DNA from: an uncultured Spirochaetales bacterium
GTDB taxonomy: Bacteria > Spirochaetota > Spirochaetia > Sphaerochaetales > Sphaerochaetaceae
Assembly (NCBI GenBank): GCA_949285145.1
Contig: CASDXQ010000017.1
Location: forward strand, 1 to 64,000
DNA: 64,000 bases
Direction: 5' to 3'
A model generated the notes under the pieces. It did no database searches, was not told where the DNA came from, and saw only the letters and a program-made list of their open reading frames with translations. The position numbers and the translations under genes were made by a program. This document shows positions 47,618-57,638 of this stretch, piece after piece. Each line of letters begins with the position of its first letter. The stretch's first letter is position 1.

Positions 47618-48586
47618 ATGATAAAAACAGAAATTGATAATCAGGAACTTCTGAAACATCTTGAAAACGTCAAGGAAGACTCAAAGGACATTTTCCTCCT
47701 CAGCGGAGGTGAAGCCAGGCTCACCGTGGTCAACGCAACTCATCTCGTGAACCAGATGAGAGCCAACCATAAACTCGGGCTTCTTGAGACTTATGTACTG
47801 GGTCAGGCCTATATAGCAGGACTTCTGCTTTCTTCAACTGTCAAAGGAAACGACAGAGTGCAGCTCATGATAGAATGCGGCGGTCCGATAAAGGGAATAA
47901 GCGTTGAAGCATGGGCAGTCGGTGCCGTAAGAGGGTATCTGCTGGAGAATCCTATAAAACTTGCAAAGCCTCTCGAAAGTCTCGACACATCACCGCTTTT
48001 CGGTCCCGGATTCATGACTGTCAGCAGAATTCTTGAAGGCAGCAAGGAACCTGTAAGCGGCACAGTAATGCTGCAGTACGGCAATATCGCAAAAGATCTC
48101 GCCGTTTATTTTGATGAAAGTGAACAGACTCCTACTCTGTTCTATATTTCCATTCATTTCGACAGGAATGGAAATGTGACCGGAGCCGGAGGACTCTTCA
48201 TCCAGGCCATGCCCAGCTGCACAGCCGCACTTCTTGACAGTCTCGGGGAAAAATCAAAACATTTCACGAACCTTGGTGAAGCTCTCAGCACAGCTGTCAG
48301 CGGCAGGAACTATGTGGAAAACGAATTCAGGGATTATGCTCCGCAGCATCTTGCAGACAGTTTTGTCGCATTCTCATGCCCTTGCTCAAGAAAAGGTTTT
48401 GAAAATTATCTGGCAAATCTGCCGCAGAAAGAAAAAGATGAGATTCTCTCAGGCACCTTCCCTCTGAATCTCGAATGCTTTAACTGCGGAACAGTATATT
48501 CATTTACGAAAAGCGAAGCGGAAACGCTTTTCATGAAGGAGAAGACAAATGATATTCTTTGCACAGACAGCGGCAAACCAGAGTGA
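47618..48586 (+). CDS. hslO: Redox-regulated chaperone Hsp33
   Basis: Protein of 322 residues, cytoplasmic holdase activated by oxidation. The N-terminal part has AYIAGLLLSSTVKGNDRVQL and IECGGPIKGISVEA. The zinc-binding Cys set is complete: SCPCSRKGF and, 27 residues on, LECFNCGTVYSF (CXC...CXXC). The ATG at 47618 gives the family N-terminus; the ribosome binding site is weak and the 20 codons before it are not conserved-looking. It overlaps the rlmKL start by 38 bases. Confidence 0.93.
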   Translation: MIKTEIDNQELLKHLENVKEDSKDIFLLSGGEARLTVVNATHLVNQMRANHKLGLLETYVLGQAYIAGLLLSSTVKGNDRVQLMIECGGPIKGISVEAWAVGAVRGYLLENPIKLAKPLESLDTSPLFGPGFMTVSRILEGSKEPVSGTVMLQYGNIAKDLAVYFDESEQTPTLFYISIHFDRNGNVTGAGGLFIQAMPSCTAALLDSLGEKSKHFTNLGEALSTAVSGRNYVENEFRDYAPQHLADSFVAFSCPCSRKGFENYLANLPQKEKDEILSGTFPLNLECFNCGTVYSFTKSEAETLFMKEKTNDILCTDSGKPE

Positions 48587-50768
48587 TCTGGTTGTAAAAG
48601 AAGCTCTCAGAGCCGGGGCAGAAAATGTCAAGGCAACGGCTGCGGGTGTCCAGTTCTCAGGCTCGCTGGAGACCGGTTACAGATTTACAATGACCACCCG
48701 TATTGCCAGCAGAGTGCTTCAGGCTCTTTATTTCGATGACGACATCAGCAGTGCGGACAAGCTGTATGAATCGTGCAGGGATGTTCCGTGGGAAGAATAC
48801 CTGAAGCCGGGCATGACTTTTCAGGTAACCCAGACAGTGCAGGCATGCAACTGGCTTAAAAACAGCCATTTCGCAGCATTGAAGCTCAAGGATGCCATTG
48901 TGGACAGAATCAAGGAGAAAACAGGCGGTTCTCGTCCTGATGTGGACAAACAGAACAGCGACTGTACCTTCCATCTCCACATCAAAGGCAGAAATGCAGT
49001 CATCTACGCGGATTTTTCCGGCGAAGGTCTGTACAGAAGAGGATACCGCTCAGGAGATAACGAAGCAGTGCTTAAAGAGCATCTGGCTTCTGCCGTGCTT
49101 TACAGAAGCGACTGGTATAAAACCGTTCTTGACGGCAGCCCCGCTGTTCTGCTTGATCCTTTCTGCGGGCTGGGTACAATCCCCGTTGAGGCTGCCCAGA
49201 TAGCTGCCGATATCGCACCAGGACTCACACGCAAGGAACCCTATGCTTTCGAGAAACTCTTTAATTTCGATGAAGATATTTACAGCAAAGTCCTCGATGA
49301 ACTGGGCGACAAGGCGGAAGCCGCCCGTTCCCGCCGCATCAGGATATACGCTTCTGACATAAGCAGGAAATGCATTGAGAGCGCCAGGGCGGCAGCTCTG
49401 AAAGCCGGTGTCTATGATTATATAACATTCGCCGTGAAAGACTTCACAAAGACAGAGGAAGAAGATGTTCCACCGGGCCCCGGGTTCATTGTCACGGATC
49501 CGCCGTACGGTGTGAGAATGAAAGAAAACGACTGTCAGAGACTTTACAGCCGTACAGGGGAAATATTCCAGAACAAATTCAAAGGATGGAAAGTCTCCCT
49601 GCTGTGTGCAGACAGCAATCTGCTCAGCAATATCGACATGAAGCCGGAGAGAACCAACAGCCTTTACAACGGAGGACTGCTTTGCCAGCTCGCCCACTAC
49701 TGCGTATATACGGATGAGGAAAAGCAGGCACTTATCGAAAAAGCGATAAGGAAAAAAGAAGAACGGCTTTCCACCCCGCTTTCCCCCGGTGCCCAGATGG
49801 CCTATAACAGACTGGTGAAAAACATCGAGGCCCTGAAAAAGCCGATGGAGGAGCAAGGTGTCACATGTTACCGCATCTATGATGCGGACATGCCTGAATA
49901 CTCGGCTGCGATAGACATGTATGACGGACGCTTCATCAATCTGGCAGAGTATGCACCTCCTTCAACAGTTGACAAGGTTGCTGCAGAAAAGAGACTTGAA
50001 GAGCTGGTGCTGGCAACAGAACGCGCGACAGGAATCGATCTTGAGAACATTTTCGTCAAGCAGAGAAAGGAACAGAAAGGAAGCGATCAGTACAACAAGC
50101 TGGACAACAAAGGCAGATTCTATGTCGCCCATGAAAACGGCGTGGAGTTTCTTGTCAATTTCGCAGATTATCTTGACACCGGTATTTTTCTGGATCACAG
50201 ACCCGTAAGAAGCCTGATTCAGCAGAATGCCCGCGGGAAACGCTTTCTGAATCTCTTCTGCTATACGGCAACCGCATCGCTGAATGCAGTTAAAGGCGGG
50301 GCTGTAAGTACAACCAATATCGATACATCCTCAACATATCTTGACTGGGCAATGGAAAACTTCAAGCTGAACGGATACCCTACCAGCATTGAGAATTTCT
50401 TTTACAAGAGTGATGCGATTGAGTATCTGTGGGACACATTCGACCGCTATGATCTCATCTTCTGCGATCCTCCGACTTTCTCAAACAGCAAAGGACGCCG
50501 TCCTTTTGATGTACAGAAAGATCATGCAAGGCTTATCGATGCTGCAATGATGCATCTGGAGAAAGACGGTCTCATGATCTTCAGCAACAACTTCAGACGT
50601 TTCAAGATGGATGAGTATATTCTTGACAGGTATTCTGTTGAAGATATAAGCGAAAGGACGATCGGAGACGACTTTGCCAGGGATCCGAGAATTCACAAAT
50701 GTTATCTCATAAAGCATAAAGTGGTCATCCATCCCGGCAAAAGGAAAGTCATAAAAGTAAAGAAATGA
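48549..50768 (+). CDS. rlmKL: Bifunctional 23S rRNA guanine methyltransferase RlmKL
   Basis: Protein of 739 residues joining two SAM-dependent methyltransferases. The first half (RlmL, m2G2445) has an N-terminal THUMP region, LLDPFCGLGTIPVEAAQIA and the catalytic TDPPYGVRM. The second half (RlmK, m7G2069) has FLNLFCYTATASLNAVKGGA and the motif FCDPPTFSNSKGR. Length and order match E. coli RlmKL (702 residues). The ATG has GGAG 8 bases upstream, within the hslO tail. Its stop overlaps the next start (ATGA). Confidence 0.94.
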   Translation: MIFFAQTAANQSDLVVKEALRAGAENVKATAAGVQFSGSLETGYRFTMTTRIASRVLQALYFDDDISSADKLYESCRDVPWEEYLKPGMTFQVTQTVQACNWLKNSHFAALKLKDAIVDRIKEKTGGSRPDVDKQNSDCTFHLHIKGRNAVIYADFSGEGLYRRGYRSGDNEAVLKEHLASAVLYRSDWYKTVLDGSPAVLLDPFCGLGTIPVEAAQIAADIAPGLTRKEPYAFEKLFNFDEDIYSKVLDELGDKAEAARSRRIRIYASDISRKCIESARAAALKAGVYDYITFAVKDFTKTEEEDVPPGPGFIVTDPPYGVRMKENDCQRLYSRTGEIFQNKFKGWKVSLLCADSNLLSNIDMKPERTNSLYNGGLLCQLAHYCVYTDEEKQALIEKAIRKKEERLSTPLSPGAQMAYNRLVKNIEALKKPMEEQGVTCYRIYDADMPEYSAAIDMYDGRFINLAEYAPPSTVDKVAAEKRLEELVLATERATGIDLENIFVKQRKEQKGSDQYNKLDNKGRFYVAHENGVEFLVNFADYLDTGIFLDHRPVRSLIQQNARGKRFLNLFCYTATASLNAVKGGAVSTTNIDTSSTYLDWAMENFKLNGYPTSIENFFYKSDAIEYLWDTFDRYDLIFCDPPTFSNSKGRRPFDVQKDHARLIDAAMMHLEKDGLMIFSNNFRRFKMDEYILDRYSVEDISERTIGDDFARDPRIHKCYLIKHKVVIHPGKRKVIKVKK

Positions 50769-51961
50769 AACAAAAACGGATTCTGCTGCTGATACTTGCA
50801 ATAATGCTGCCTGCAGGCCTCAGCCTACATGCGGCTTCATCCTTTTCAGTTCTGGCAGGAATGGGATACCTGTCAGATTTTGCAGGCGGCAGCAGAACAT
50901 TGTTTCCCTCTTCAGCGCGCATACAGCAGGGTGTGAATGATCTAGACTGGTTCGATGATGTCGACACATCGATGTTCATGGACATAAACTTCGGACTTAC
51001 AGAAAGAAGAGTAGTACAGGATCCTGCCAGCGGCGCATATCTTAACGGCAGTGAAATGACCAGGAGCATGTATTATTATTCAAGCTTCTATTCTGCTGTA
51101 AGCTACATATTCCGCAACAGCCTGTTCGAGAATCACAGGACAGACAAGATGTTTCTGACTCTTGATGCCGGTATAAACATCCGCTTTGAACAGGCTTTCG
51201 ACTCTTTCAGCAATATAAGAAACGGCAGATCTTTTCTGGATGAATATCTTGGCGGCGAAAGCTACTGGAACGCTAAATCCAGAAATTTCAAAGCTCTTCC
51301 CGATATAAACGGAAGTGCGTATCTTATGGCAAATTCCATAAGTTTCACTGCGTCTTTTGACAATATGTATCAGGAAAAGAACAAGATATACAGGGAAGGC
51401 GTGAGCGGTAATGCATCTCTCACGCTTGCTCCGTGGTTTCTTGCAAACAGAATGCCGGATTTCTTTGACACTGAGGTTGATTATTATAAGCTGTCAGCCG
51501 ATATGACATATGCCAAGGTGATCTATAACAAGGAAAACTGGAAACGGTGGAACAAACTGTCACTTGTCATTGAGGACAGACTTTACAGCCAGCTCATTCT
51601 GGGTAATGCGGTACCGAAACTTGCAGATACAATCTCATTTCCGGGACTTGGGTACACAAGCCTGCCGTTTGTAATCCAGAACCAGTTCAAATTCTATGTA
51701 TACGGTCCGAATTTCATTTCCGACAACACAATCCCGTATGGATATGTTTTCATAGATCTCGGCCTTGCATCCGGAAGACCGAATAACAGCATGCCAGATG
51801 TGGCATGGGAAAATTTCATGTATATGGAAATCGGGCTGAATCTTCATTTCGAATTATTCGGAGCGCTCCATGTTTTCGGTGAGATCAGCTACACACTGAG
51901 CAACATAGTGAACTATGGAAATTTCTTTGACTGGAATATCGGTGCTTATTTCTCGATTTAG
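50765..51961 (+). CDS. Putative outer-membrane protein of unknown function
   Basis: Protein of 398 residues with a signal peptide ending near LSLHAA. The sequence is rich in aromatic, amphipathic strands (MYYYSSFYSAVSYIFRN, LFGALHVFGEISYTLSNIVN) and ends FFDWNIGAYFSI, as expected for a barrel. I do not recognise a family. It overlaps the rlmKL stop and lies just before the truncated tRNA-Pro. Confidence 0.62.
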   Translation: MKQKRILLLILAIMLPAGLSLHAASSFSVLAGMGYLSDFAGGSRTLFPSSARIQQGVNDLDWFDDVDTSMFMDINFGLTERRVVQDPASGAYLNGSEMTRSMYYYSSFYSAVSYIFRNSLFENHRTDKMFLTLDAGINIRFEQAFDSFSNIRNGRSFLDEYLGGESYWNAKSRNFKALPDINGSAYLMANSISFTASFDNMYQEKNKIYREGVSGNASLTLAPWFLANRMPDFFDTEVDYYKLSADMTYAKVIYNKENWKRWNKLSLVIEDRLYSQLILGNAVPKLADTISFPGLGYTSLPFVIQNQFKFYVYGPNFISDNTIPYGYVFIDLGLASGRPNNSMPDVAWENFMYMEIGLNLHFELFGALHVFGEISYTLSNIVNYGNFFDWNIGAYFSI

Positions 51962-52007
51962 ATGTTGACATAAACGGCAAAGATAAAGAGAATAGATAAG
52001 TCACAAA

Positions 52008-52062
52008 CGGGTAGTAGCGCAGGGGCTAGCGCACTTGGTTCGGGACCAAGGGGTCGGAGGTT
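52008..52062 (+). pseudogene. Truncated tRNA-Pro (anticodon CGG), broken in the T loop
   Basis: Bases 52008-52062 follow tRNA-Pro closely: acceptor 5' half CGGGTAG, D arm GCGC-AGGGGCTA-GCGC, anticodon arm CTTGG-TTCGGGA-CCAAG (anticodon CGG), variable GGGTC and T stem 5' half GGAGG plus TT. The next bases, AATATGACAATG, do not continue the T loop, and no complement of the T stem or acceptor stem follows. The 3' third is thus missing. TTGACA at 51965-51970 could be its -35 box. A terminator follows at 52075. It could be a dead gene or a tRNA-derived small RNA. Confidence 0.75.
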
Positions 52063-52074
52063 AATATGACAATG

Positions 52075-52103
52075 AAAGCATCTCATACTGAGGTGCTTTT
52101 TTT
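52075..52103 (+). terminator. Rho-independent terminator after the truncated tRNA-Pro
   Basis: An 11-bp stem with one G-T wobble (AAAGCATCTCA/TGAGGTGCTTT) and a 3-base loop; the T-run continues to 52103. It overlaps the last codon region of the convergent HAD gene. Confidence 0.85.
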
Positions 52104-52881
52104 AAATCACTCTGAAATGCCTGAGTGCATTTATAATGCCGTCTTGATCAATATGGCTGGTAACATAGGAAGCACAGGCTTTCACTTCATCACCGGCATT
52201 GCCCATCGCAACTGAATTTCTGAAAGCCTTCAGCATGGAAATATCATTGCCGCCGTCTCCGAACACAATGCAGCTGTCACCATCGTAACCGAAAGCATCA
52301 AGAACAGCCTTCACTCCCCTGTCCTTGCCCGCAGACGGACTTATGGCATCAAGAGCCCAGTCATTCCAGCGGCTGAGAACACACCCTTCAAGATTCCCGG
52401 CAATCAAATGTTCTTCACTGCGCTCTGCAAAGAAAATCAGCTGGAATATATCCTCATCCGAAATATCTCCCCGGGGAGGAAGCAGCGGAGTACCGAGCTG
52501 TTTCTGTGTCTCGTATACTTTTTCATTATAGAAATTCGCATACATTCTGTCTTTTTCCACAACAACAAACGGTATTATGTGCCTGTTGAAAAGCTCTTTC
52601 ACATTTTTCCTTGCACTTCCGGTAATCGGAAATGAAATGATGGTATTCAGATTCCTGTCAAGATTCACCGCGCCGTTCAGCGTCACGAAACCGTCAAACA
52701 CAGACCAGTCAACAGGCAGCCTCTTCATATCAGCATACTGCCGGCCTGTCGCTATGAAGAGCTTCATACCCTTCTCTTTCAATTCTCCAAGCGTTTTCCA
52801 CAATGACGGAGGAACGCAGTTCTGTGAATGAGAGAACAATGTGTGGTCAATGTCGAAAAAAAGAGCTTTTATTTCTGGCAT
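52102..52881 (-). CDS. Cof-type HAD phosphatase
   Basis: HAD hydrolase of 259 residues, Cof/YidA subfamily. Motif I is FFDIDHTLF (DxDxT nucleophile pattern D-I-D-H-T), motif II FIATGR, motif III Lys in AGKDRGVKAVL, and motif IV VFGDGGNDISML. Such enzymes dephosphorylate sugar phosphates, PLP or flavin mononucleotide. Substrate cannot be inferred. The Met at 52881 starts the domain cleanly; no ribosome binding site is visible. Confidence 0.88.
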   Translation of the reverse strand: MPEIKALFFDIDHTLFSHSQNCVPPSLWKTLGELKEKGMKLFIATGRQYADMKRLPVDWSVFDGFVTLNGAVNLDRNLNTIISFPITGSARKNVKELFNRHIIPFVVVEKDRMYANFYNEKVYETQKQLGTPLLPPRGDISDEDIFQLIFFAERSEEHLIAGNLEGCVLSRWNDWALDAISPSAGKDRGVKAVLDAFGYDGDSCIVFGDGGNDISMLKAFRNSVAMGNAGDEVKACASYVTSHIDQDGIINALRHFRVI

Positions 52882-52907
52882 GAACAGATTGTACAAAAGA
52901 AAAATGC

Positions 52908-52938
52908 AAAAATAAAGCAGTCCTCCGAAAAGAACTGC
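52908..52938 (-). terminator. Terminator of the small barrel protein gene
   Basis: On the minus strand GCAGTTC pairs with GGACTGC (one wobble), followed by TTTATTTTT. It is 28 bases beyond the stop of the 52967-53476 gene. Confidence 0.7.
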
Positions 52939-52966
52939 CTGTGATCAGATGAAAGCAATATCCGGA

Positions 52967-53476
52967 TCAGAAGTTCCAGATTGCTCCGAGGTAACCTGCG
53001 AAAGCAAAACCCACATCAACCCTGTTTGCAGAAATGATTCTCAGACCAGGTGCAAGGCGCAGATACATTGTTATGGGAACATCGCTGATCTGGCTGAAAT
53101 TATATTCGATACCGACAGGAACAATTGCAGAGAGGCTTGCGCTGACACCGTCATTGAACGCAATTGCAGTATTCGCACCTACACCGACAGTGAGAGGGAA
53201 CTCAAGTCCGCGTCCTCCGTCGATTGTATAGAAATTCCAGGAAGCTGCGACATCACCGGCAAGAACAAAATTTCCGCTGAAGACGTTGAGAACATCAAAT
53301 CCGATATTGGAAAGGATATCGAAGTCTCCGAAACCGAAACGAAGTCCTACACCTGTATTTGTACCGAGGTTAAGACCTACACCGAATGAATTGTCCTCAC
53401 TTACACCGCCTAATGCGAATACAGGAGTGACAAGCATTGCAAAGATAAGAACCATAAGAGCGATCTTTTTCTTCAT
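52967..53476 (-). CDS. Small outer-membrane beta-barrel protein
   Basis: Protein of 169 residues with signal peptide MKKKIALMVLIFAMLVTPVF-A. The mature part is a string of Gly-rich amphipathic strands (FGVGLNLGTNTGVGLRFGFG; FPLTVGVGANTAIAFNDGVS) ending YLGAIWNF. It looks like an 8-strand barrel similar in style to small spirochaete outer-membrane proteins. The ATG at 53476 follows AAGGAG by 9 bases; the longer upstream frame is rejected. Function unknown. Confidence 0.78.
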   Translation of the reverse strand: MKKKIALMVLIFAMLVTPVFALGGVSEDNSFGVGLNLGTNTGVGLRFGFGDFDILSNIGFDVLNVFSGNFVLAGDVAASWNFYTIDGGRGLEFPLTVGVGANTAIAFNDGVSASLSAIVPVGIEYNFSQISDVPITMYLRLAPGLRIISANRVDVGFAFAGYLGAIWNF

Positions 53477-53763
53477 CTTACTAATCTCCTTGATTAAATA
53501 TATTTTTTTCCAAATATACTGATAAAACTCGGTAAAGGTACACTTTTTTTCAGACTTTGTCAAAACAGCATCATTTCCCATATATGAAGGCATACTACGC
53601 AAGGATCATCCGGCTTGCACATGGCATGAAACCATGATAGGGTACATTCATCGGGAAACTGACGTCCTCATGCGGTGTTTCCATAGCTTCTGAACATCGC
53701 CTGGAGATGTGAATACCGCCATGATACTGCCTGAATGCAGAATTTTCAGACAAGGAGCGCAAT

Positions 53764-54798
53764 ATGCCCAGTCTTTATGCAAAAAGCGAAGAAGAATTAG
53801 AAAAAGAGCTGAAGCTCGAAAAATCATTTCAGGCAAGGCAGATTATCTCATGGCTGATGAAAGGTGTCACAAGCTGGGATGATATGAGCAATCTTCCTCT
53901 TTCATTGAGAAACAGGATGAAGGAAGAGAACGTGCAGATCATCTCGTCAAGAATTGCAGGAAGACAGGATGACAGGAGTGCTGTCAAACTTCTGATAGAA
54001 CTTGAAGACAATTCACTTATCGAATGCGTGATGCTCTCTGACGGAGATGGAAGAAAAACAGCATGCATATCATCGCAGGTGGGCTGTGCTATGGGATGCT
54101 CTTTCTGCAAGACAGGAACAATGGGCCTTGTCAGAAATCTCAAAGATTACGAGATAGTGGAACAGATGGTTCATCTGCATACCATTGATCCTCATATCGG
54201 ACATATTGTATTCATGGGCATGGGGGAACCGCTGCATAATTTCTCTTCACTCATGAATGCAGTGACCTGTTTTCACAGTCCGTCAGCTTTCAATATTTCA
54301 TACAGAAAAATGACAATATCTACCTGCGGGCTGGTTCCCGGGATCAGAAAACTTGCAGAGCTTGATCTCGGCGTAAGACTTGCCGTTTCCCTCGTAAGTG
54401 CACATGATGAGACACGCAGCCTCATAATGAAGATAAACAGACGCTATCCGCTTGCTGAGCTTAAAAAAGCACTCATCGCATTCCAGCATACCTGTGACAA
54501 AAGAATAACGCTCGAGTACTGTCTTCTGAAAGGAGTAAACACAACAAAAGAAAGCGCAAAAGCGCTTTTCAGCTTCACTCAGGGACTTTCTGTGAATGTG
54601 AATCTCATTCCATGGAACAAAATTGAAGGTCTTAAATGGGAAACTCCTTCACATGAAGAGATAAAATCATTCACACGCGTTCTTGATGCCTATCATATAA
54701 ACTACACTCTCCGCCTTCCGAAAGGCAGAGGAATAAGCGGAGCCTGCGGACAGCTTGCAACAAGCACAAGAAAAAAAGAATGCCAGACTAACTCCTGA
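53764..54798 (+). CDS. rlmN: 23S rRNA (A2503-C2) / tRNA (A37) methyltransferase RlmN
   Basis: Radical SAM enzyme of 344 residues. The [4Fe-4S] motif is CAMGCSFC, within SSQVGCAMGCSFCKTGTMG. FMGMGEPLHNF and the C-terminal GACGQLA with the methyl-carrying Cys region are present. It modifies A2503 of 23S rRNA and A37 of some tRNAs. AAGGAG stands before the ATG. The 287 bases upstream (53477-53763) contain no other gene that I can support. Confidence 0.93.
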   Translation: MPSLYAKSEEELEKELKLEKSFQARQIISWLMKGVTSWDDMSNLPLSLRNRMKEENVQIISSRIAGRQDDRSAVKLLIELEDNSLIECVMLSDGDGRKTACISSQVGCAMGCSFCKTGTMGLVRNLKDYEIVEQMVHLHTIDPHIGHIVFMGMGEPLHNFSSLMNAVTCFHSPSAFNISYRKMTISTCGLVPGIRKLAELDLGVRLAVSLVSAHDETRSLIMKINRRYPLAELKKALIAFQHTCDKRITLEYCLLKGVNTTKESAKALFSFTQGLSVNVNLIPWNKIEGLKWETPSHEEIKSFTRVLDAYHINYTLRLPKGRGISGACGQLATSTRKKECQTNS

Positions 54799-55921
54799 CA
54801 AGAAGAACAGCTGTTTCCTCGTGACTTGAAGATGGATAGAAATCAAAAACCTGTACTCTGGCGATTCTGTAGGATGGAATAAATGAGCGCAGGTCAGAGG
54901 CAAGCGTGACACTGTTGCATGACACGTAAATTATCCTGGCAGAATTCCAGGATGCGATGAGAGCTGCAGTATCCCTGCCCAGCCCGGTCCGGGGAGGATC
55001 CACAATTACAGTATCAACATCCTTATTGATTCTCCTTGCCCATTTTGACACATCATCAGTGAAGAAAGAGGCAGATGGCGCATTCTTGCGTGCAAGTGAA
55101 AGGCAGTACCTGTTCTTTTCCACTGCGGTGACAGATTTTCCCTCATTCTCAAACAATGCAGAGAATGTGCCGACTCCGCTGTAAAGATCCATGATGCAGT
55201 CACCTTCAGTGTTCTCCCTGACGAAATCGAAAAGAGAGGGCAGAAGACGTGGATTTGACTGGAAAAACACATTAGCTGAAAGATGGAAAGAATACTTTCC
55301 GACACTCCTGATTCCCTCGTCTTTTTCAATCAGAACCCTGTCATCAGCATCAAAAAGAGAAAGTTCAACGAATCCTGTTCCGGGATTCACTCCTTTGCTG
55401 AAAAGGTAACTCTGTGCTTTTGAAAATATGAAGCCGGGATCTGCGAGAATTTGATTAAGACGTGATGAAAGCAGAGGACAGTTCTCCACTTCAACGAGGG
55501 AATTGGATTTCTTTGAAAGAAACCCGATTTTTCTGTCCCTGAGCGAAACATGAATGCGGCAGCGTGCCCTGTAACCTTCCTTTTCTGCCCAGACAGGAGG
55601 AAGCATGACGGAGGAAATATCTTCACCTGTATTTTTCCTGACGGCATTTATGACAATATCTTTTTTCAGATTGGCCGATGTCTCTTCATCCACATAATCA
55701 AAATCACAGCCGCCGCAGATTCCCGAATAAGGACATGACGGGCTGATTCTTAACGGACTGTCTGAAAGTCTCTCTGTCTCCAGAGCCTCAATATGGTTTT
55801 TCCTTTCCTTTGCACAAATGACAGAAACTTCCTCTCCTGGCAGAAGAGAATGAACATATACATTTTTTCCTTCCTGACGGCACACTCCCAGGGCACCTGA
55901 TACCAGATACTCACATCTCAT
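54788..55921 (-). CDS. TrmA/RlmD-type RNA 5-methyluridine methyltransferase
   Basis: Protein of 377 residues. The N-terminal TRAM-like part leads to an iron-sulfur Cys cluster (CPYSGICGGCDF with a further Cys near VENCPLL). The SAM domain has CIMDLYSGVGTFSALF and DTVIVDPPRTGLG, and the nucleophile Cys is in IIYVSCNSVTLA. The target uridine (tRNA U54, or 23S U747 or U1939) is not certain. The ATG at 55921 is 8 bases after GAGGAA and overlaps the end of the peptidase gene. The tail overlaps rlmN convergently. Confidence 0.88.
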   Translation of the reverse strand: MRCEYLVSGALGVCRQEGKNVYVHSLLPGEEVSVICAKERKNHIEALETERLSDSPLRISPSCPYSGICGGCDFDYVDEETSANLKKDIVINAVRKNTGEDISSVMLPPVWAEKEGYRARCRIHVSLRDRKIGFLSKKSNSLVEVENCPLLSSRLNQILADPGFIFSKAQSYLFSKGVNPGTGFVELSLFDADDRVLIEKDEGIRSVGKYSFHLSANVFFQSNPRLLPSLFDFVRENTEGDCIMDLYSGVGTFSALFENEGKSVTAVEKNRYCLSLARKNAPSASFFTDDVSKWARRINKDVDTVIVDPPRTGLGRDTAALIASWNSARIIYVSCNSVTLASDLRSFIPSYRIARVQVFDFYPSSSHEETAVLLVRS

Positions 55922-57638
55922 GTTCAAATTCCTCAAGCTTCTCCACGTATTTTTCAATAAGATTTATTCCGTCCATCCAGAATGATATGTCCCTGATGTC
56001 ACAACCTATGCTGAGAGCCGCATCATCAGCACTGCACATTCCGGTCATCGAAAGCAGTTTTCTGTACTTTGAGGCAAATTCCGGATCATGAGTACTGAGA
56101 CTGAAAAGGGATAAAGCGAACAGCTGTCCGAATGCATAAGGATAGTTGTAATAACTGAAATCTGCACAATAATAATGACTTTTGACGGCCCACATAAGCT
56201 CATGCTTGCTTCCTACCGCATCCCCATAGCTGCGATCCTGCGCATCTTTCATCAGGAAGGACAGCTCATCAGCGCTGACCTCCCCATCTTTCCTCTTCTC
56301 AAAAAGGCTTTTCTCAAAATAGTATCTTGAGAGGATGTCGACACAGACCTGCGCCGCATCGGAAACAAATGATTCAATGATGCATGCTGCTTCATCTTTT
56401 CCTTCACACTCCTCCAGCAGTTCGCGGAATACTATCTGCTCTGCAAATATGCTGGCAGTCTCCGCCAGTGTCATAGGATAAGAAGCAAGTAGCGGTGGCT
56501 TTGAAAGCACAAGCGAATCATGATAGGCATGTCCCAGTTCATGCGCAAGAGTGGATACTGATGAATAATCAAACGAGAAGTTCATGAAGACGCGGCTTTC
56601 TTTTACAAGCGGAAATGCTGTATCATATGCCCCTCCGCTCTTTCCTGAATGAGCAGGTGCGTCTATCCAGTTATGATCGAAAGCCATTCTGGCGAATTCT
56701 CCCATCTCGGGAGAAAAAGATGAATAGCATCTGATCACTATTTCCCGGGCATCGGCAAATGAATATTCTTTATGTTTTCCTCCATGATTCACCGGAGCAA
56801 AAAGGTCATACCATTCAAGTTTCTCCAGAGACAGAAGCCCTGCTTTGGCTTTGAAATACCGCCTGAAAACCGGAAGTCCCTTTTCAAGGGCGGCAATGAG
56901 AGAGTCAAAAGCATTTCTGGAAAGCCGTGAAATGAAAAGACTGTGGTCAAGAGGATCATTCCATCCCTGTCTTTTTTCTATCGTGAGACAGGTTCCCTTT
57001 ATTCCGTTCAGGGCGGCGGCAAGTGCAGTCCTGTTTTCATTGAGAATCCGCTTTTCCCTTTCATAGGATGATTTTCGCACGTTGCGGTCCGGACTGTACG
57101 CATCACTGCGAAGCTGTGTCAGTGTACGCCCTTCATCGTTCATGGAACTTGTGAGGGCATCAAAGAGGCGTGAAAACGCAGAGGAGCCGCTTCTTGCAAG
57201 ATCACAGGCCAGACTCTCTTCCTGTATGCTCATTTTATGTGCCGCATCTTCCGCCATGTGCGAAAGCACATACCTGTAATCACTGAGGCAGGGATCATCC
57301 TGCCAGCTTTTCCTTTCTTTCAGATATGACAGGAAAATATTCCTGCATTCACTCATCACAGAAGAATACGCTTCCACCTCACCGACTGCCCTGATGTATT
57401 CAGACTTTGATGTATCTGTGGTGTATAAAGCACTTGTATAGGCTTGAAGTGTTTCATAAACAGCCAGGAGTCTGTTATACGGTTCCAGTATTTCAGAAAG
57501 AGAGAGATCTCTCTCAATCAGAGTTTCCACCTGCCGGCATAAGTAAGGAACTGAATCCAGCGCTGTTCTGAAATCATCCCCGTCAATGGAAGAGAAGATT
57601 GTACTGAGATTCCAGTTCGGAAGTGTTCTGTCAATCAT
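55911..57638 (-). CDS. pepF: M3 family oligoendopeptidase F-like metallopeptidase
   Basis: Peptidase of 575 residues. The zinc motif HELGH is at about residues 364-368 within VSTLAHELGHAYHDSLV, and the third ligand region is ETASIFAEQIVFRELLEE. Members hydrolyse short peptides in the cytoplasm. No signal peptide is present. It lies 40 bases after the ABC ATPase gene on the same strand, and its end overlaps the RNA methyltransferase gene, so all may share one transcript. Confidence 0.9.
   Translation of the reverse strand: MIDRTLPNWNLSTIFSSIDGDDFRTALDSVPYLCRQVETLIERDLSLSEILEPYNRLLAVYETLQAYTSALYTTDTSKSEYIRAVGEVEAYSSVMSECRNIFLSYLKERKSWQDDPCLSDYRYVLSHMAEDAAHKMSIQEESLACDLARSGSSAFSRLFDALTSSMNDEGRTLTQLRSDAYSPDRNVRKSSYEREKRILNENRTALAAALNGIKGTCLTIEKRQGWNDPLDHSLFISRLSRNAFDSLIAALEKGLPVFRRYFKAKAGLLSLEKLEWYDLFAPVNHGGKHKEYSFADAREIVIRCYSSFSPEMGEFARMAFDHNWIDAPAHSGKSGGAYDTAFPLVKESRVFMNFSFDYSSVSTLAHELGHAYHDSLVLSKPPLLASYPMTLAETASIFAEQIVFRELLEECEGKDEAACIIESFVSDAAQVCVDILSRYYFEKSLFEKRKDGEVSADELSFLMKDAQDRSYGDAVGSKHELMWAVKSHYYCADFSYYNYPYAFGQLFALSLFSLSTHDPEFASKYRKLLSMTGMCSADDAALSIGCDIRDISFWMDGINLIEKYVEKLEEFEHEM

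Follow-up and report, generated by a model that had tools for sequence, protein, structure and literature searches.

A tRNA-Pro(CGG) gene probably inactivated by a short internal deletion in an uncultured spirochaete

Why does a proline tRNA gene end two bases into its T loop, and what is the part that remains? The question arises in a stretch of 64,000 nucleotides (the window) from an uncultured Spirochaetales bacterium, in which a tRNA-Pro(CGG) gene is recognizable by sequence inspection from its 5′ end through nucleotide 55, at bases 52008–52062 of the plus strand. The first-pass annotation offered three explanations, namely a lost redundant tRNA, a scar of a mobile element, and a tRNA-derived small RNA, of which the first has held up and the other two have not. 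We consider it probable (roughly 70%) that a single-copy chromosomal tRNA-Pro(CGG) gene of this rumen-type uncultured spirochaete was inactivated by a short internal deletion, which is probably tolerated because tRNA-Pro(UGG) can read the same codon. The features of the locus and its surroundings are as follows.

48549–50768: RlmKL fusion, 23S rRNA methyltransferase
50765–51961, plus strand: upstream neighbour, 398 aa, no NCBIfam match; syntenic in both sister species with 83% amino acid identity
51965–51993, plus strand: putative promoter of the tRNA gene, TTGACA, 17-nt spacer, GAGAAT (10/12 in a consensus scan); identical in both sister species
52008–52062, plus strand: 5′ 55 nt of tRNA-Pro(CGG), to T54-T55; 100% identical to the intact orthologues in sister species G001 and G012
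52062–52063, plus strand: probable deletion junction; the CAAATCCTCTCTGCCCGA of relatives is absent between these bases (compared with G001, G012 and 51 further intact copies)
52074–52103, plus strand: predicted intrinsic terminator (RNA folding), 12-pair stem, 3-nt loop and T run
52102–52896, minus strand: downstream neighbour, Cof-type HAD-IIB hydrolase (TIGR00099, above cut-off); syntenic in both sister species with 75–77% amino acid identity
53764–54798: RlmN, 23S rRNA methyltransferase
54788–55957: RlmD/RumA, 23S rRNA methyltransferase

The remnant retains the 5′ acceptor strand CGGGTAG, the D arm, the anticodon arm with CGG and the variable loop, and it ends with the 5′ strand of the T stem, GGAGG, followed by T54-T55, so that homology stops after the TT of the T loop. 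Its anticodon arm, CTTGG TTCGGGA CCAAG, has a stem of 5 pairs and a loop of 7 nt that carries CGG, and it is identical to that of orthologues called tRNA-Pro(cgg). ARAGORN did not call the remnant as a tRNA, the only tRNA that it called in the window being a tRNA-Gly, and an Rfam search of 50.5–53.5 kb at E up to 1 gave no tRNA, with weak sub-threshold matches elsewhere only. The known genes for comparison are proK of Salmonella and E. coli and the orthologues in Sphaerochaeta-like Spirochaetales, all of which are bacterial tRNA-Pro(CGG) genes. The 55 bases are identical to those of intact orthologues, and promoter and position are conserved in the sister species, whereas the remnant lacks the 3′ T-stem strand, the 3′ acceptor strand and the discriminator base, and because of these losses no tRNA can form from it. 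The cloverleaf is thus incomplete and the predicted fold contains no acceptor stem. We considered whether the 5′ acceptor strand might pair instead with the sequence that now lies downstream and rejected this, as no such pairing occurs in this fold.

The relatives used for comparison are metagenome-assembled genomes labelled uncultured Spirochaetales or Spirochaetaceae, with one genome per species, and the wider set includes Sphaerochaeta and Candidatus Ornithospirochaeta. The two nearest sister species (G001 and G012) carry a complete tRNA-Pro(CGG) gene in the same place between the same flanking genes. From the −35 box to T55, 98 of 98 bases are identical to both, the match ends exactly at 52062, and the gene then continues as CAAATCCTCTCTGCCCGA in both; the orthologue in G001 was called tRNA-Pro(cgg) by ARAGORN. 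This bears out the earlier description of a tRNA-Pro(CGG) that matches over its first 55 bases and has lost its 3′ third, as well as that of a TTGACA box upstream. Judged from sequence and position, the remnant is orthologous to the tRNA genes of the sister species and not a chance match. That G001 and G012 keep the orthologue intact at this locus is what a tRNA pseudogene of the deletion type should show. The first-pass annotation had counted intact genes in relatives against its proposal; they are present in the sister species, and what they show is that the gene was once whole.

Searching a contig database with the Cof protein returned no relatives, and a query of 49 bases of the tRNA then returned 52 copies of its 5′ part, 51 of which have the whole 3′ part while one is cut by a contig end. 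The truncated form was therefore found in no other genome among these 52 copies. Within the genus, no member was shown to have lost tRNA-Pro(CGG), the genome without a match (G010) being 86% complete. An apparent absence in two other species, G003 and G006, was rejected because both carry a divergent tRNA-Pro(CGG). In these two the divergent gene (L138 at G003:C80:30396-30434 and L124 at G006:C25:1318-1356) stands where the usual one is expected and differs clearly from it, possibly through replacement by a foreign copy.

The source genome is a 2.06-Mb draft in 61 contigs, estimated to be 96% complete, with 45 tRNA matches. Intact tRNA-Pro(UGG) and tRNA-Pro(GGG) are among its genes, and a search across the draft found no second or intact tRNA-Pro(CGG). 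The same search had been proposed for the missing 3′ half, which was not found either: two matches with 3 mismatches were obtained in this genome against one for a reversed control pattern, and none is credible. A split or trans-joined tRNA was rejected on the same result. Also absent from the 45 matches are tRNA-Ile(GAT) and tRNA-Ala(TGC). These two genes often lie within rRNA operons, and such operons are commonly missed by draft assemblies.

The surroundings are collinear with those of the sister species on both sides, a single alignment spanning the site in G012 and two abutting alignments covering it in G001. Both flanking genes are the same in all three species, so that the site shows neither insertion nor rearrangement of DNA. 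The distance from the break to the Cof gene is 42 nt here, against 133 nt from the same base in G001. The named neighbouring genes are of housekeeping types. Three 23S rRNA methyltransferase genes are clustered near the site (window positions 48549–57638), and all are syntenic in the sister species.

A short deletion would have taken out the 3′ acceptor strand together with the 3′ half of the T arm. Most likely ∼20 nt were lost at a 2-nt TT repeat, through either slippage or joining, in GGAGGTT[CAAATCCTCTCTGCCCGATT]AATATG. Several relatives have CCCGATTAA directly after the tRNA, which fits a 20-nt deletion ending before AATATG, and because this sequence often occurs there, the junction of GGTT with AATATG can be explained by a deletion between the two TT copies. 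The length of 20 nt is approximate, as conservation does not extend into the spacer beyond the tRNA and there is no close relative to align.

The timing of the loss can be bounded from the neighbouring sequence. At fourfold sites of seven neighbouring genes 57–59% differ from the sister species, which corresponds to ∼1.1 substitutions per site, and the absence of any change in the 98 retained bases sets, by our own calculation, an upper 95% bound of ∼0.03 per site on neutral change since the loss. This is roughly 5% of the branch if the branch is assigned one half of the 1.1. A gene long without selection would have changed within 98 bases, and thus either the loss happened very recently or it is confined to the assembly or to a fraction of the population. 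The second reading, in which the true gene is complete and ∼20 nt were dropped by an assembly or consensus artefact, or are missing from a minority strain represented in this metagenome-derived genome, appears unlikely but carries appreciable weight. The retained bases look as if they belonged to a functional gene amid flanks that have diverged strongly, the genome is a draft of many contigs, and CCG is not clearly depleted relative to the sister species at shared proline sites (33 versus 38 and 32 versus 44). However, the local assembly looks good, judging from adjoining genes that are intact and in the same order as in the sister species, assembly errors do not typically take the form of a clean 20-nt loss, and the same pattern is expected from a real deletion that is very recent.

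The promoter and the terminator allow another reading, that the unit makes a tRNA-derived small RNA selected in its truncated form. A strong terminator 12 bases beyond the homology had been noted earlier, and RNA folding agrees, giving a stem at 52074–52100 followed by T's to 52103, which a simple terminator scan had missed. The sequence from promoter to terminator folds more stably than shuffled sequences (z −3.2), but this stability derives from the anticodon arm of the tRNA and from the terminator. In the sister species and in other members of the family the complete tRNA gene has a promoter and in many cases also a terminator, so that both elements predate the truncation; the terminator-like hairpins found at the corresponding position in the sister species differ from the one here. 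The layout is ordinary for a tRNA gene and, being inherited from a functional one, is no evidence for a small RNA; with the truncated form seen in no other genome, we regard this reading as highly improbable. Its variant, a stable 5′ fragment of tRNA-Pro with a new regulatory role, would account for the lack of change in the retained bases and is if anything more doubtful. If the TTGACA-17-GAGAAT sequence acts as a promoter, as its motif suggests, then with the terminator also retained transcription may still yield a short RNA that cannot be processed and would be degraded. The T loop and the 3′ ends of tRNA genes are common integration targets, but it is scarcely credible that a mobile element integrated there and left this scar through imprecise excision, given that the genes around the site have the order and spacing seen in both sister species and enclose no insert, that the named ones among them are of housekeeping types, that no 3′ tRNA fragment was found in the genome, and that such elements usually restore the tRNA end. 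In our judgement the locus is either a tRNA pseudogene of the ordinary kind, made by a small deletion, or an artefact, and it points to no new system. It shares with other such pseudogenes a single-copy and partly redundant gene, a short deletion and untouched flanks, and it differs only in that the retained part is still unchanged.

If the deletion is real, the CCG codon would be read by tRNA-Pro(UGG) through U-G wobble. Plain U-G wobble suffices for a UGG tRNA to read CCG, and proK, the equivalent gene of Salmonella, is dispensable. Loss of tRNA-Pro(CGG) is plausible in view of this and of the intact tRNA-Pro(UGG). In this genome no clear cmo5U enzyme was found, the PF08003 matches being partial and modest, and CmoB was rejected as support for broad decoding by tRNA-Pro(UGG) because its matches are partial and of the general methyltransferase kind. 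CCG is a common codon (236 of the 663 proline codons in the long ORFs of the window) and all other C34 isoacceptors that were looked for are kept, which makes the loss of tRNA-Pro(CGG) alone somewhat costly and unusual; when the literature was searched for comparable losses of isoacceptors, nothing directly matching came up. A real deletion would be a fresh natural instance of a C34 isoacceptor disappearing while its codon continues to be used frequently, caught before decay of the remnant or a shift in codon usage, and would provide a small, clean case of shrinkage of a tRNA set.
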